Positions 1,293-11,316 of a DNA stretch of 35,271 nt are shown piece by piece (within the stretch, counting starts at the first letter, position 1; every line of letters begins with the position of its first letter). The notes beneath the pieces were generated by a model. That model searched no databases and was not told the DNA's origin. It saw only the letters and a program-made list of their open reading frames with translations. Made by a program: the position numbers and the translations under genes. Origin of the DNA: Burkholderiales bacterium (GTDB lineage: Bacteria; Pseudomonadota; Gammaproteobacteria; Burkholderiales; Burkholderiaceae_C); contig CP070653.1 in the NCBI GenBank assembly GCA_020354665.1, positions 1,688,823 to 1,724,093 on the forward strand, written 5' to 3'.

Positions 1293-2510
1293 TCAGGCCG
1301 CGTGGCGGCCGAGCTCGATCTTCGCGATCGCGTTGCGGTGCACCTCGTCCGGGCCGTCGGCAAAGCGCAGCGTGCGCACGTGTGCGTAGTACTGCGCGAG
1401 CGGGAAGTCCTGGCAAAGGCCACCGCCGCCATGCGCCTGGATCGCCCAGTCGATCACCTGGCACGCCATCGTCGGGGCGATCACCTTGATCATCGCGATC
1501 TCGGCCTTGGCCGCCTTGTTGCCTACGGTGTCCATCATCCAGGCCGCTTTCAGCGTCAGCAGTCGCGCCTGGTCGATCAGGCATCGGGCCTCGGCGATGC
1601 GCTCCTGTGTCACCGTCTGCTGTGCGATCGGCCGGCCGAACGCGACGCGGTTCGACGCACGCCGGCACATCAACTCGAGTGAGCGTTCGGCCAGCCCGAT
1701 CGTGCGCATGCAGTGGTGGATGCGTCCCGGGCCGAGCCGCCCCTGCGCGATCTCGAAGCCGCGCCCTTCACCGAGCAGCAGGTCCGATGCGCTGACGCGG
1801 ACGTGATCAAAGTCGACCTCCATGTGGCCGTGCGGTGCATCGTCGAAACCGAATACCGACAGCGGCCGCAACACCTTCACCCCCGGTGTCCGTGCCGGCA
1901 CGAGGATCATCGACTGCTGCTGATGGCGCGGCGCCGAAGGGTCGGTCTTGCCCATGAAGATGTAGACGCTGCAACGCGGGTCGCCGGCGCCGCTGATCCA
2001 CCACTTGCGGCCGTTGACCCGGTACGCGTCGCCGCTGCGCTCGATGCGTGCCTCGATGTTCGTTGCGTCCGACGAGGCCACTGCGGGCTCGGTCATCGCG
2101 AAGGCGCTGCGGATCTCGCCGGCCAGCAGCGGCTCGAGCCATTGCTTCTTCTGCGCCGCAGTGCCGTAGCGCACGAGCACCTCCATGTTGCCGGTATCGG
2201 GCGCCGAGCAGTTGAAGACTTCGCTCGCCCACGGCACGCGGCCCATGATCTCGGCCAGCGGCGCGTACTCCTGGTTGGTCAGGCCTGCGCCGTACTCGCT
2301 GTCCGGCAGGAACAGGTTCCACAGCCCGGCCGCGCGCGCCTTGGGCTTGAGCTCCTCGATCAGCGCGAGCGGGGTCCAGCGTCTGCCGGCGCGCGTGTTG
2401 GCCTCGATCTCGTCCCAGTAGCGCTGCTCGTTCGGGTAGACATGGGCATTCATGAAGTCAGTCAGCAGCGCCTGCAGCTGTCGCGTACGCGCCGAGTAAG
2501 CGAAGTCCAT
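1293..2510 (-). CDS. Acyl-CoA dehydrogenase, ACAD10/11-like (405 aa)
   Basis: FAD-dependent acyl-CoA dehydrogenase of normal length. The start is the ATG at 2508-2510 ([13 protein letters not shown]), with an AGGAG ribosome site just upstream. Visible marks are the FAD/substrate segment [18 protein letters not shown], the [12 protein letters not shown] strand, the [11 protein letters not shown] signature and the C-terminal [13 protein letters not shown] followed by [10 protein letters not shown]. The DGPDEVH ending is that of the ACAD10/ACAD11 branch; most family members have an EGT motif there, with the catalytic glutamate. The gene lies 20 bp behind an APH-type kinase, the same two activities that are fused in human ACAD11 and paired as LvaA/LvaC in the Pseudomonas levulinate pathway. 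A role in 4-hydroxy- or related hydroxyacyl-CoA breakdown is therefore inferred; a plain short- or branched-chain dehydrogenase remains possible. Confidence 0.93.
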
Positions 2511-2530
2511 CGGGTTCTCCTGTTGCTGCG

Positions 2531-3631
2531 TCAGCCGCCCCGCCGTGCGGCCTCGGCGAATTGCCAGCCGAGTTCGGCCAGCGGTCGCGCGCCGGCCCCG
2601 GCGCGCCGCGCCTGTTCGCTCGACGCAGTGCCGTCGACGACGCGCCGCGCAATGCCCTGCAGGATGCCGGCCATGCGGAACAAGTTGTAGGCGAGGTAGA
2701 AGTTCCAGTCGGCCATCACCGCGTCGACGTCGTGGCGGCCGGTGCGTGCGCAGTAACGCCGCACGTAGTCGCGCTCGCTCGGAATGCCAAGCGCCTGCAG
2801 GTCGAGGCCGCCGATGCCGCGGAACGCGCCGGGCGGGATGTGCCATGACATGCAGTGATAGCTGAAATCGGCCAGCGGATGACCGAGCGTCGAGAGCTCC
2901 CAGTCGAGCACCGCCAGCACGTGCGTCTCGTGCGGGTGGAAGATCAGGTTGTCGAGGCGGAAATCGCCGTGCACCACGCTCACCTCGCGTTCGTCACGAG
3001 CGCCCGCCGGGATGTTCAGCGGCAGCCAGTCGATCAGGCGCTCCATGGCCTCGATCGGCGCGGGGCCCGCCGGCGAGGTCGAAGCCTGGTACTGCTTGGA
3101 CCAACGCGCAATCTGCCGCTCGAAGTAGTTGCCGGGGCGGCCGTAATCGGCCAGCCCGGCGGCCTGCACGTCAACTTGATGCAGGGCCGCGATGACGCGG
3201 TTCATTTCGTCGTACACGGCTGCGCGCCCGGCCGGTGCGAGCCCGGGTAGCGACTGGTCCCAAAACACCCGGCCGTCGACGAATTCCATCACGTAGAACG
3301 CGCGGCCGATCACCGATTCGTCCTCGCACAGCAGGTGCATCCGCGCTACCGGCACCGCGCTGCCAGTCAGCGCACGCATGACGCGGAACTCACGCTCGAC
3401 CGCATGCGCCGACGGCAGCAGCCGGGCAGCCGGTCCCGGCTTGGCCCGCATCACGTAGACCATAGCCGGCGTGATCAGCTTGAACGTCGGGTTCGACTGT
3501 CCGCCCCTGAACTGCTCGACACGCAGCGGGCCACTGAACCCTTCGAGGTGTTCCCTCAGGTACGCCTCGAGCGCGCCGACATCGAACTGGTGTGGCGCGG
3601 CGATCGGGCGGGTGCCGGTGTGACTGTCCAT
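2531..3631 (-). CDS. APH-family phosphotransferase (ACAD10/11 kinase-domain type)
   Basis: Kinase-fold protein of the aminoglycoside-phosphotransferase superfamily, 366 aa from the chosen ATG at 3629-3631. That start lies 9 bp after a GAGGA site; the ATG two codons upstream at 3635-3637 is an alternative but sits only 3 bp from it. Counting from the upstream Met, the nucleotide-binding loop is [10 protein letters not shown] (43-52), the catalytic HGDFRLDN is at 223-230 (D225 base, N230 metal ligand) and the metal-binding D-W-E follows at 245-247. No signal peptide is seen, so it should be cytosolic. It precedes the dehydrogenase gene by 20 bp. In the homologous fused (ACAD11) and split (LvaA) systems the kinase phosphorylates a hydroxyacyl-CoA so that phosphate can be eliminated. 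Antibiotic resistance is unlikely given this context. Confidence 0.9.
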
Positions 3632-3745
3632 CACCATCTGTCCTCAGCGTTCGCGCATTGTGCCCAATGCGGATTCGACCGCGGAACGGCATCGCGCTCG
3701 GCAGGGGACAGTCACGCAGCGCCGCCGCTGCGACTCGACGCCCGG

Positions 3746-4462
3746 TCAGACGATGTCAGCCCCTCGACTCTTCTCGACGTCGAGGTGGTGGGTCAGCGTG
3801 TTCCCGAGCGACGCGTCGACCAGTTCCTTCACTGCGACCGACGCCGCGAACGGTACAGCGGCCAGTCGCTCGCCCAGCCGCAACGCCTCGTCGAGCGCAC
3901 TGCCTTGCCGTGTGAGCGCGGCGGCCAGGCCGAACGCCTTCATCGTCTGCGCCTCGACCGTTGCGCCCAGCCACAACCATTGCAGGGCCAGCGCGCGCGG
4001 CAGCCGCTGGCCTAGATGCCAGCTCAAACCGGCCAGCGGCATGCGACCGCTCGCCGCGCCCGTAATGACGAAGCGTGCATCCTCGGCGGCGACCACGACG
4101 TCGCAGGCCAGTGCCAGGGCCAGTCCGGCGTCCGCAGCGACGCCCTCGACCGCTGCGACGACCGGCTTGGGAAACGCACGCAACCCATCGATCCATGCAT
4201 GCAACGCATCAATCGCCGCGGCGCCGGAATCGGCTGCCAGACCTGGCGCCGCGGTGCGGCTGGGCAGCGCTTCGCCGGCACTGAAGTTGCCGGCGTCGCC
4301 ATGGACGACGACCAGCGAGACCGCTTCGTCGGCTTCGGCGACCGCGAGCGCCTCGATGCCCGCCGCGCAGATCTGCGGCGTCAGGGCATTGCTGGTGGCC
4401 GCATCGCTGATCGTCAGCACCAGCGTCGAGGCACGTCGTGCAGAGCGCAGTTCGGAGGTCAT
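3746..4462 (-). CDS. Crotonase (enoyl-CoA hydratase/isomerase) superfamily protein lacking canonical catalytic Glu
   Basis: Crotonase-fold protein, 238 aa from the ATG at 4460-4462 (MTSELRSARR); an in-frame GTG at 4513 is a longer alternative. The oxyanion-hole segment GNFSAGEALP and the core KPVVAAVEGVAADAGLALAL-ACDVVVAAEDARF are clear. Aligned with rat enoyl-CoA hydratase, the glutamate of the G-G-G-C-E-L motif is replaced by Ala (about residue 115) and that of the P-E-I-L-I-G motif by Gly (about residue 135). A normal hydratase reaction is therefore doubtful, and isomerase, hydrolase or another crotonase chemistry is possible. It is upstream of, and in the same direction as, the kinase/dehydrogenase pair with a 108 bp gap, so it may belong to the same pathway but could be transcribed separately. 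Confidence 0.85.
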   Translation of the reverse strand: MTSELRSARRASTLVLTISDAATSNALTPQICAAGIEALAVAEADEAVSLVVVHGDAGNFSAGEALPSRTAAPGLAADSGAAAIDALHAWIDGLRAFPKPVVAAVEGVAADAGLALALACDVVVAAEDARFVITGAASGRMPLAGLSWHLGQRLPRALALQWLWLGATVEAQTMKAFGLAAALTRQGSALDEALRLGERLAAVPFAASVAVKELVDASLGNTLTHHLDVEKSRGADIV

Positions 4463-4614
4463 CGGTAAAGCGTTCGCATGCGTAGCCTCGGGCGCGCCGA
4501 TTTTGGCACGCACAACGCTGCGCGCTGCGGCCTGCGCATTTCGCCCGCTTGTGACGGGATTTCCGATGTGTAACTCATGTTAGAGTCGCCCGTCTTTCCA
4601 GTCCAAAAAGAGGC

Positions 4615-6591
4615 ATGCTGCGGCGCGCGAAGACCCTTCCCCTCGCGATCGGCGCGGGGCTCCTGGTGGCCTCGGCGGGTGTCCATGCTCTGGGGTTCGG
4701 GCAGTCCAGCACGGTAGCGACGCTCGGGCAGCGGTTGAACATCACCGTTGGCTTGCGGCAGGACGAATCCGAATTCGTCGACGTCGAATGCGTCTCGGCC
4801 GAGGTGCGCACGGGTGACAACCGTGTACAGCCGCAGAACGTGCGGGTGACGATCGAGGGCGCGCCCGGCGATGCGCGCCGCTTGATCCGCGTGAGCACGA
4901 CGACCGTCATCGACGAGCCGATCGTGACCATCAAGCTCGCGGTGGGCTGTCCTCCTTCGGTGTCGCGGGAATTCGTCGCGCTGGCGGATCCGCCGGTGGT
5001 GCAGTTGGCCGCACAGGCGCCCGAGCCGACTCCCCCCGCGGCGGCGGCGCCGGCCGCGCCCCCACAGCGCGCCGAGGCCGAGGGAGTGACGACGGCGCGC
5101 GCACCGGCGGTCGCGGCTCCGAAACCTGCGGCGCCGGCCACGCCCCGTCGGCGTGCGCCGCGCCCGAGCAGCGCAACGGTGCGGGCACCGTCGCTGCAAG
5201 TCGCGCGACCGGCCGGGGCGGCCGGGCCCGCAGTGGCCGCGCCGGTGCAGCGAGGACCTGCGCCGGAGGTCCGGGATCGGCTGCGTCTGGACGCGGCGCG
5301 GCTGCCGGCCCGGCCGACGCAGCCGGCATCGGCCCCGCCGCCGGGTGTCGTCGAAGCGGCGGCCGCCGACCAGGCGGCATCGGCGGCCGCGGTGGCGGCA
5401 GCAGCCGCATCGGCGGCAAGCGCTGCTGAGGCCGCGCGCGCAGCCGATGTCGAGCGGTTGCGGGCGCTCGAGGAAAGCCTGGCCAAGCTGCGTGAAGAGA
5501 TGCGCGGCAGTACCCAGGAACTCACCGCACTGCAGGCGCGCGTGCAGCGTGCCGAAGCCGAGCGCTACGCCAATCCGGTCGTCTACGCGTTGGCTGGCCT
5601 GAGCGCGGTGCTCGCGATGGCGCTCGGTGCCGCGCTGTTCAGGCGATCGCGCGAACGCGAGGCACGGTGGTGGGCCCACTCCCAGCCGGCGCGACTCGAC
5701 GAGGCGGGGCGGCCGTCGAGGATCCGCAATGACTCGCCGGCCGAGAGCGTGCCGTCGTCGGTGCTCGAGCCCGTATCGGGCGTGGAGGTCGACGAGATCA
5801 CGTCGCAAGCGCCGATGCCGACCGTGTCGCCGGCCACCCGACCGGCCGTGTCCGAGGCGCGCCGCGAGGTCACGGTCGAGGAACTGATCGACCTTGAACA
5901 GCAGGCGGAGTTCTTCATCGTACTGGGCCAGGACGAGTCGGCGATCGATCTGTTGATGAACCACCTGCGCAATACCGGTGGCATCAGCCCGCTGCCGTAT
6001 CTGAAGCTGCTCGAGATCTATCGGCGGCGTGGCGAGCGCAGCCCTTACGAACGCCTGCGTGAGCGTTTCAACCGGCGCTTCAACGCTTACGCGCCGGACT
6101 GGGAGGCCGACCCGGCCGCCGGTCGGTCGCTCGAGGACTACCCCGAAGTGATCGTGCGGCTGCAGGCGGCGTGGTCGCAACCGCAGCGGGCGATGGAAGA
6201 ACTCGAATCGATGCTGTTCCGCCGGGACGAAGGGGAGACGTTCGACGTTCCGGCCTACGGCGAAGTGCTGTTCCTGTACTCGCTCGCGCGTGACCTGCTC
6301 GATCATCCGGGCCGCGAAACGGTCCCTGGCAAGGACGTCGATCTGTTGTTGCCGCTGGGAGGCGGCGACGCGTCAAGCCCAGCGGCGGTGTCACCGATGG
6401 TGTCCACGATGTCGATGGAGCCCAGTCCGATGGTCGAGAAGCCGATTTCGCTCGACCTCGACGTGTCGATGCCCGCACCGCTCGACGCATTGGGCGAACC
6501 GCGACCCGCGCGCACCGATCGCGTCGCTGGAACAGGCGGTTCGGGCGTCCAGGCAGGCAAGCCCGTGCCTGGCGGCAAGAAGACCTCGTAA
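4615..6591 (+). CDS. fimV: FimV-family inner-membrane protein (658 aa)
   Basis: The start is the ATG at 4615, preceded by AAAGAGG. The N-terminus is a signal peptide (MLRRAKTLPLAIGAGLLVAS-AGVHA) followed by the FimV N-terminal domain (about residues 26-130), ending in the typical REFVALADPP. Next come an Ala/Pro-rich linker (about 130-240), an Ala-rich coiled coil (about 240-318), a single membrane span (about 322-342, VVYALAGLSAVLAMALGAALF) and a C-terminal FimV/TPR-like region from about residue 420 (VEELIDLEQQAEFFIVLGQD). Known FimV proteins organise the cell pole, type IV pili and twitching. I see no LysM peptidoglycan-binding domain between the N-terminal domain and the linker, so this may be a divergent paralogue. 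It stands alone between divergent crotonase and convergent aminotransferase genes. Confidence 0.85.
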   Translation: MLRRAKTLPLAIGAGLLVASAGVHALGFGQSSTVATLGQRLNITVGLRQDESEFVDVECVSAEVRTGDNRVQPQNVRVTIEGAPGDARRLIRVSTTTVIDEPIVTIKLAVGCPPSVSREFVALADPPVVQLAAQAPEPTPPAAAAPAAPPQRAEAEGVTTARAPAVAAPKPAAPATPRRRAPRPSSATVRAPSLQVARPAGAAGPAVAAPVQRGPAPEVRDRLRLDAARLPARPTQPASAPPPGVVEAAAADQAASAAAVAAAAASAASAAEAARAADVERLRALEESLAKLREEMRGSTQELTALQARVQRAEAERYANPVVYALAGLSAVLAMALGAALFRRSREREARWWAHSQPARLDEAGRPSRIRNDSPAESVPSSVLEPVSGVEVDEITSQAPMPTVSPATRPAVSEARREVTVEELIDLEQQAEFFIVLGQDESAIDLLMNHLRNTGGISPLPYLKLLEIYRRRGERSPYERLRERFNRRFNAYAPDWEADPAAGRSLEDYPEVIVRLQAAWSQPQRAMEELESMLFRRDEGETFDVPAYGEVLFLYSLARDLLDHPGRETVPGKDVDLLLPLGGGDASSPAAVSPMVSTMSMEPSPMVEKPISLDLDVSMPAPLDALGEPRPARTDRVAGTGGSGVQAGKPVPGGKKTS

Positions 6592-10231: not shown

Positions 10232-11316
10232 GCGACCTGACGCCGTCGCAGCGAGAAGGTCGCGGCATGAGAGCGCCACCACAGCAGGGCAAGACCGATC
10301 AGGAACGCGCTGCCATGCACCAAAGCCAGTGCGGTACCCATGTCCAGTCGGCCCCCTGCGACCCACGCCTGCGACAGGTTGATCAGGTTCAAATACACGA
10401 CGAACGCAAGCAGCGCCAACACCAGGTTCCAGTTCGTCGCACGGCGCGGGTTGGTGGCCGACAGGCCGATCCCGAGCAGCAGCAGGTTCGCGCCGGCCAG
10501 CACCAAGCCCATCCGCCACACCAGCTCGGCGAGATTTTTCGGCGTCGGGACGAGCAGCAGATCGACGCTCGTGCGCGCGCTGGGCGGCAGGTCTTCGACG
10601 CCGTGCACCGCCTTCTCGCCGATCAGCACGCTGTAGTTCTCGAAGCGGGCCAGCGTCTTCTCGCCGGTTTCCACGTCCTGTTCGTTGCGCTGACCGCGCT
10701 CGAGCACGAGGAAGCGGTCCTCGCCTTGCGTCTCGACGCGCCCGCTGCGCGCCGAGGTCACCGACTCGCGCTTGCCGTCTTGCGTGAGGATGAACACGTT
10801 GCGGCCGGTGCGGCCATCGGCGCTGTCGCGTTCGATGAAGAACACGCGCGTACCATCGCTGCTGGCCTGGAACTGTCCCGGCGCGACGCGCGAGAGGTCC
10901 GAGCGTTGTGCGTAGCGTTCACGCAGCTCGACGCTGTTGCGATTGCCCCAGGGCCAGACGAACAATGCGAGCGTCGCGATGACGAGCAGCACCGGCCAGG
11001 CCATGCGCAGCACCGGACGGACGAAACGCACCAGACCGACGCCGCTGGCAAACCAGATCGTCATCTCGCTGTCGCGATACATGCGACCCAGCGTGGCAAC
11101 GACGGCGACGAACAGCGACAGATTGAGAATCGTCGGCAGATGGCCGAGCGCGATATAGCCCAGCAGCAGCACGACGTCCTGTGGTGCGACCACGCCGCCG
11201 GCCGCCAGTCCCAGCGTGCGGATCAGCATCATGGTCAGCACGATCGTCAGGATCACGACCAGCGTCGCGCCGAAGGTGCGCGCCAAGTCTCGGCGCAACG
11301 TCGAATCGAATAACAT
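10228..11316 (-). CDS. lptF: LPS export ABC transporter permease LptF (362 aa)
   Basis: First gene of the minus-strand operon and permease partner of LptG. It starts MLFDSTLRRDLARTFGATLV at the ATG 11314-11316. Predicted layout is membrane spans at about 15-35, 50-75 and 100-120, a periplasmic domain (about 125-260) and three C-terminal spans (about 268-350) with the conserved PTPKNLAELVWRMG coupling segment before them. The length is typical. The gene is divergent from pepA with only 27 bp between the two start codons, and I see no strong ribosome site in front of it. The ATPase gene lptB is not in this window, as usual. Confidence 0.95.
   Translation of the reverse strand: MLFDSTLRRDLARTFGATLVVILTIVLTMMLIRTLGLAAGGVVAPQDVVLLLGYIALGHLPTILNLSLFVAVVATLGRMYRDSEMTIWFASGVGLVRFVRPVLRMAWPVLLVIATLALFVWPWGNRNSVELRERYAQRSDLSRVAPGQFQASSDGTRVFFIERDSADGRTGRNVFILTQDGKRESVTSARSGRVETQGEDRFLVLERGQRNEQDVETGEKTLARFENYSVLIGEKAVHGVEDLPPSARTSVDLLLVPTPKNLAELVWRMGLVLAGANLLLLGIGLSATNPRRATNWNLVLALLAFVVYLNLINLSQAWVAGGRLDMGTALALVHGSAFLIGLALLWWRSHAATFSLRRRQVA

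Follow-up and report, generated by a model that had tools for sequence, protein, structure and literature searches.

The window analysed here comprises 35,271 nucleotides of a Burkholderiales bacterium (GenBank assembly GCA_020354665.1, contig CP070653.1, positions 1,688,823 to 1,724,093). Three genes near its start encode a crotonase, a kinase and an acyl-CoA dehydrogenase and are transcribed from the minus strand in this order (Table 1). Kinase and dehydrogenase, hereafter referred to as the pair, are both real genes, and the distance of 20 bp that an earlier note on this DNA had given for them is exact. Its nearest neighbours include, besides the crotonase, a FimV-like gene, a conserved gene without a name and a GST-like frame. 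Beyond the FimV-like gene follow an aminotransferase and then a LysR-type regulator.

Table 1 Features of the kinase-dehydrogenase locus (positions refer to the window)
Feature	Position	Strand	Basis or remark
Acyl-CoA dehydrogenase of the ACAD10/11-LvaC subgroup, 405 aa, predicted to eliminate phosphate from 4-phosphoacyl-CoA	1293-2510	minus	ATG at 2510
Gap between kinase and dehydrogenase, 20 bases, with AGGAG-like ribosome-binding stretch	2511-2530	minus	read by eye
Kinase of the APH fold, 368 aa, predicted 4-hydroxyacyl-CoA kinase	2531-3637	minus	Pfam APH, likeness to ACAD11
Gap between crotonase and kinase, 108 bases	3638-3745	minus	sequence read
Crotonase, probably degenerate, 238 aa	3746-4462	minus	ATG at 4462; Pfam ECH_1, 5.2e-31
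FimV-like gene	4615-6591	opposite to crotonase, upstream	FimV_N 21.5 bits, under the cut-off of 27 (weak)
Conserved gene without Pfam match	473-1270	plus	adjoins the module in 7 of 40 stretches, counting the present one

The dehydrogenase contains the N, M and C domains of Pfam Acyl-CoA_dh. Comparison with phmmer yielded E-values of 8.2e-148 for ACAD11 (8v3u), 1.9e-145 for 4hr3 and 1.2e-142 for 2wbi, whereas no ordinary acyl-CoA dehydrogenase scored better than 2.4e-41, indicating that the enzyme is closer to ACAD11. Among the matches listed, the nearest named dehydrogenase (81% identity) belongs to a Rubrivivax assembly. Residues R258, R263 and H266-C267-M268-R269 correspond to R626, R631 and HCMR 634–637 of ACAD11. 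The DGPDEVH stretch singled out in the earlier note is present, and its first Asp (D385) takes the position of the catalytic D753 in the alignment with ACAD11. Neither the R....R.HHCMR stretch nor DGPD varies across an alignment of 12 rows, consisting of the dehydrogenase of the window and 11 others that are 52–75% identical to it.

The kinase was assigned to Pfam APH with an E-value of 2.2e-50. Matches obtained with phmmer include PDB entry 3dxp (5.6e-165) and the kinase domain of ACAD11 (8v3v; 1.6e-86, 294 bits), to which the identity is 43% over 361 columns. R174, D225 and N230 correspond to the substrate residue R176, the catalytic D220 and N225 of ACAD11, and the Arg beside the Glu of helix C is also conserved. 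As a member of the Pfam APH superfamily that also matches the NCBIfam model APH_3p, the protein could be an aminoglycoside phosphotransferase that adjoins a dehydrogenase by chance. However, the APH_3p match reaches 23.9 bits, far below both the cut-off of 205 bits and the score against the ACAD11 kinase domain, and the dehydrogenase neighbour is conserved across loci. We give this explanation practically no chance. PDB entry 3dxp was deposited as 'putative acyl-CoA dehydrogenase', but is a kinase by sequence and 67% identical to the kinase of the window; its label may have been transferred from ACAD10/11 or the neighbouring gene.

PMC12440821 names residues with which ACAD11 binds its substrate and catalyses the reaction. 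Eleven of these were tried via the PDB chain. Ten of them fit one numbering, and all ten are identical at this locus.

A kinase tree was calculated from 57 of the 116 kinase rows, with LvaA and LvaC not among them. It places the kinase of the window in a set of 49 rows with the ACAD11 kinase domain, apart from eight kinases linked to DUF6285 (100/100), although a long-branch join was flagged at this split and the rows L269, L235, L232 and L231 were flagged as long. The position of ACAD11 inside the 49-row set is tentative, and the letter make-up of ACAD11 was flagged as unusual. In the phylogenetic check proposed in the earlier note, the kinase is thus not found outside the ACAD11 clade. Within the set it belongs to a group of seven rows including Rubrivivax and Azohydromonas metagenome assemblies (96/90), which lies in turn within a Burkholderiales set, as vertical descent would give. 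The bacterium is therefore probably a member or a near relative of the Sphaerotilaceae. The end branch of the kinase measures 0.19.

ACAD10 and ACAD11 phosphorylate 4-hydroxyacyl-CoA and eliminate the phosphate to yield 2-enoyl-CoA, with FAD not left reduced (PMC12440821; PMC11342911). 4-Hydroxyvaleryl-CoA, for example, is converted to 2-pentenoyl-CoA with no added electron acceptor required (PMC12440821). The mammalian enzymes share both domains, as well as the ten placed active-site residues of ACAD11, with the pair, but are built as one chain, whereas the window has two genes. ACAD10 also has a HAD domain, for which a Pfam scan of the three proteins of the window gave no match. A separate kinase and dehydrogenase, as in the window, are found in the Burkholderia orthologues of LvaA and LvaC (kinase Q63VL0; PMC11342911), which are from the order Burkholderiales as well. 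Either half of ACAD10 could be replaced, one at a time, by the separate Burkholderia orthologue in vitro with 4-hydroxyhexanoyl-CoA (PMC11342911). We infer that the assayed proteins are orthologues of the pair of Burkholderia guangdongensis (L174), to which the kinase and dehydrogenase of the window are 67% and 73% identical, respectively. At these identities, the same chemistry is a safe reading.

Based on the homology, active-site residues, gene order and phylogeny observed, the pair is very probably the bacterial two-gene form of ACAD10/11 and converts 4-hydroxyacyl-CoA to 2-enoyl-CoA. The earlier note had matched the pair to the fused halves of ACAD10/11 and to the LvaA/LvaC pair, which is correct, in the case of LvaA/LvaC as regards the kind of enzymes. 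The kinase would use ATP to phosphorylate the 4-hydroxyl of 4-hydroxyacyl-CoA, giving 4-phosphoacyl-CoA. Its flavoprotein neighbour would then eliminate the phosphate, with FAD cycling internally, and the resulting 2-enoyl-CoA would pass into ordinary beta-oxidation. For this organism, we infer both the chemistry and the chain length of the substrate, and hydration and oxidation of the product would fall to other enzymes of the genome. Removal of the awkward hydroxyl allows the fatty acids to be burned, which is the job of human ACAD10/ACAD11. The locus is one more case in which a 'phosphotransferase' and an 'acyl-CoA dehydrogenase' gene can be given a definite role, namely to feed 4-hydroxy fatty acids into beta-oxidation.

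Pairs of this kind are frequent among Burkholderiales. In a search of 60 genomes, own genome included, the kinase was found in 41 (threshold 1e-30) and the dehydrogenase in 42 (1e-60). Two sets of loci were compared with the window. The named loci are the best 80 of 588 and were fetched by their dehydrogenase; some lie on short contigs, so that absences there are not proof. The related stretches number 37, with L105, L103 and L104 left out of the counts. In 55 of these 80 named loci, the dehydrogenase is immediately preceded by the kinase. In these 55 pairs, the 5' neighbour of the kinase is a Crp/Fnr regulator (30), a histidine phosphatase (11), a crotonase (3) or a 3-hydroxyacyl-CoA dehydrogenase (1), while in the remaining ten none of the searched genes is directly upstream. 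Of the 57 named loci with a kinase, 41 thus have a regulator or phosphatase directly in front of it. Among the related stretches, a regulator is found before the kinase in 27/37 and a phosphatase in 1/37.

Crotonase, kinase and dehydrogenase occur together in 28/80 named loci and 15/37 related stretches, and 3-hydroxyacyl-CoA dehydrogenase joins them in 22/80 and 14/37, respectively. The fullest cluster has the order 3-hydroxyacyl-CoA dehydrogenase, crotonase, regulator or phosphatase, kinase, dehydrogenase, and is the module plus two of the next steps of beta-oxidation. Of the 28 named loci that combine crotonase and pair, 25 additionally have a regulator or phosphatase; the other three (L149, L187 and L193) show the crotonase-kinase-dehydrogenase layout without either. 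The pair of the window is part of a known, widespread module, and only the worn crotonase next to it is unusual.

Some observations weigh against reading the pair as the two-gene form of ACAD10/11, or limit this reading. R86 of PMC12440821 could not be placed, as it falls on a Phe of the reference in the numbering that fits the other ten residues. No orthologous kinase was found in the stretch searched for 21 of the 80 named dehydrogenase loci. Of the related stretches, 11/37 have the regulator upstream of the kinase but no dehydrogenase within 600 bases behind the kinase. Finally, the exact substrate is less certain, since an acyl-CoA ligase or reductase (LvaE, LvaD) was not seen among the nearest neighbours, with positions 10520–35271 of the window covered by an open reading frame list only.

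The earlier note had remarked on the missing LvaB. A search of the whole genome for DUF6285, a putative stand-in for LvaB, found nothing at an E-value of 0.001, and the gap between kinase and dehydrogenase is too small for any gene. Among 229 genomes of the class, DUF6285 was detected at eight places in five genomes, all eight with a kinase frame adjoining or enclosing it. At two places it shares a single frame with the kinase (L228 and L229; 475 and 477 aa; DUF6285 from 1501), and at six it is near the kinase. From its distribution, DUF6285 would seem to be the small partner protein of a different subfamily of kinases. Since the DUF6285-linked kinases form a separate group in the tree, the subfamily of the window kinase seems to be without this partner.

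In Pseudomonas putida, LvaB (12 kDa) is a binding partner of LvaA (PMC6692424). According to the same paper, the lva cluster of Pseudomonas citronellolis LA18T lacks lvaB and contains a gene for a histidine phosphatase, and no LvaB-like gene is among the nearest neighbours of the pair in the window either. Absence of LvaB is therefore already known from another cluster and does not imply a different route. The earlier note had suggested a different route from the missing LvaB and the presence of a crotonase, a suggestion that is not supported in view of this cluster (PMC6692424) and of the Burkholderia orthologues that replace either half of ACAD10 singly (PMC11342911). The crotonase as a replacement of LvaB was likewise rejected, because its orthologues near the pair are mostly accompanied by a regulator or phosphatase (25 of the 28 crotonase-bearing named loci).

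The lva operon of P. putida (LvaA, LvaB, LvaC) shares the kinase and the phosphoacyl-CoA-eliminating dehydrogenase with the window. Since LvaA and LvaC are the same two enzyme types as the pair (PMC12440821; PMC11342911), the pair could belong to a dedicated levulinate pathway. However, the nearest neighbours of the pair include no LvaB-, LvaD- or LvaE-like gene as known from the lva loci of P. putida and P. citronellolis. The putative stand-in DUF6285 is unmatched in the genome. LvaA is only 29% identical to the kinase domains of ACAD10/11 (PMC11342911), compared to 43% between the window kinase and ACAD11, which makes LvaA the more remote kinase. A levulinate pathway is thus very unlikely here, and we retain the assignment to the two-gene form of ACAD10/11.

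The crotonase differs from its relatives in several respects. The earlier note had spoken of an altered active site, and changes in the conserved motifs are real; the shortened C-terminus had gone unremarked there. The score against NCBIfam oxepin_alt is 211.7 bits (cut-off 300) and that against PRK07511 is 200.2 bits (cut-off 274), whereas the orthologue in L068 passes both with 377.3 and 371.9 bits. An alignment with 47 orthologue rows (46 different sequences, as L153 and L069 are the same DNA; L105, the own copy, was left out) revealed changes at 16 of 57 near-invariant columns. One of them affects the [ST]PDGG motif, where the window has Leu in place of the Asp found in 47/47 orthologue rows, and position 111 is Asp, compared to Gly in 46/46 rows. 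Both correspond to catalytic positions of the crotonase family. The best PDB match, the enoyl-CoA hydratase 4jfc (1.5e-47), keeps the PDGGG motif that is lost in the window. Past the last shared stretch, the tail comprises six residues, compared to 25–33 in 46 of the 47 orthologues and 12 in one, so that the C-terminus is about 20 residues short. In the crotonase tree, calculated without the partial L149, the end branch of 2.66 is the longest (median 0.27). The long branches of the window and L086 join in this tree; as this grouping is uncertain, nothing but the length of the window branch was used.

A remainder of a frameshifted tail was sought by comparing the tails of L149, L086 and L068 with the three coding-strand frames of positions 3560–3860. 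None was seen, and each of the nine scores was reached by 39–200 of 200 shuffles.

A crotonase is also found in a similar neighbourhood in genome G032 (L086, G032:C15:749000-758500), where kinase and dehydrogenase are absent, the reverse of the loss in other relatives. Its branch length is 1.27 and it shows ten departures by the same kind of count, with the motif Asp kept.

These features indicate that the crotonase of the window is probably a relaxed or decaying leftover. Against simple decay stand its open frame, an identity of 46% to the best orthologue over 238 columns and a third-position G + C content of 0.80, compared to 0.86 in the kinase, 0.89 in the dehydrogenase and 0.82 in the FimV-like gene. 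The same frame and identity, together with the retained ECH_1 fold match, would also suit an active third enzyme that hydrates 2-enoyl-CoA, so that the three genes form a working mini-pathway. Crotonase orthologues and 3-hydroxyacyl-CoA dehydrogenase near the pair at the frequencies given above, as well as the recurrence of the three-gene layout in L149, L187 and L193, point in this direction. Nevertheless, we regard an active hydratase as unlikely, given the exchange of the motif Asp for Leu and of Gly111 for Asp, the changes at the other near-invariant columns, the six-residue tail and the NCBIfam score under the cut-off.

Alternatively, the protein may have been re-used as a non-catalytic partner, e.g. 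by serving the kinase as a scaffold or an allosteric subunit. The frame has stayed open and 46% identity is retained in spite of the branch of 2.66, suggesting that the protein has not been drifting freely all along, and its third-position G + C content is only slightly below that of kinase and dehydrogenase. In G032, however, a crotonase with the motif Asp is kept in a like place without the pair, and re-use appears quite improbable. The more specific version, in which such a non-catalytic partner replaces a lost Crp/Fnr gene or an LvaB-type subunit and modulates the kinase or hands on phosphoacyl-CoA, is highly improbable. The plainest reading of the crotonase wear is relaxed constraint after the loss of its partner gene. 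What the window mainly shows is how a kinase-dehydrogenase cluster gets pruned.

Neither a regulator nor a 3-hydroxyacyl-CoA dehydrogenase lies beside the crotonase at this locus. The rest of the genome contains no close match that would indicate relocation: identity to the Crp/Fnr regulator of G024 is 29% at best, and that to the 3-hydroxyacyl-CoA dehydrogenase of G017 is 40% at best. Within the clusters, the 3-hydroxyacyl-CoA dehydrogenases are 49–80% identical, and a few stretches also hold other matches of 30–34%. In B. guangdongensis (L174), a histidine phosphatase is located between crotonase and kinase, whereas the window has none and its crotonase is worn. A scan of positions 3400–4800 for promoters and terminators yielded no site of either kind, which says little.

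The flanks of the module (LysR-type regulator, aminotransferase, unnamed conserved gene and GST) match those of the Rubrivivax assembly L148, but in L148 a regulator and not a crotonase precedes the kinase. Hence, the absence of the regulator in the window is compatible with either loss from the full form of the cluster or a different history.

The Crp/Fnr regulator carries a cyclic-nucleotide-binding domain and is tightly linked to the kinase in 28 of 40 stretches (e.g. L068:5633-6352), a linkage observed in Comamonadaceae and Rubrivivax-like relatives. A histidine phosphatase was found upstream of the kinase in 12 of 121 stretches (e.g. L170:6109-6807 and L202:6120-6836), belonging to Burkholderia and some others. 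The association with Crp/Fnr or histidine phosphatase in Burkholderiales provides two leads on the control of the kinase-dehydrogenase step. In ACAD10, the HAD domain restrains the kinase (PMC11342911). As a phosphatase is present in the clusters of Burkholderia and P. citronellolis and a HAD domain in ACAD10, the pairing of kinase and phosphatase may, by analogy, recur through different folds.

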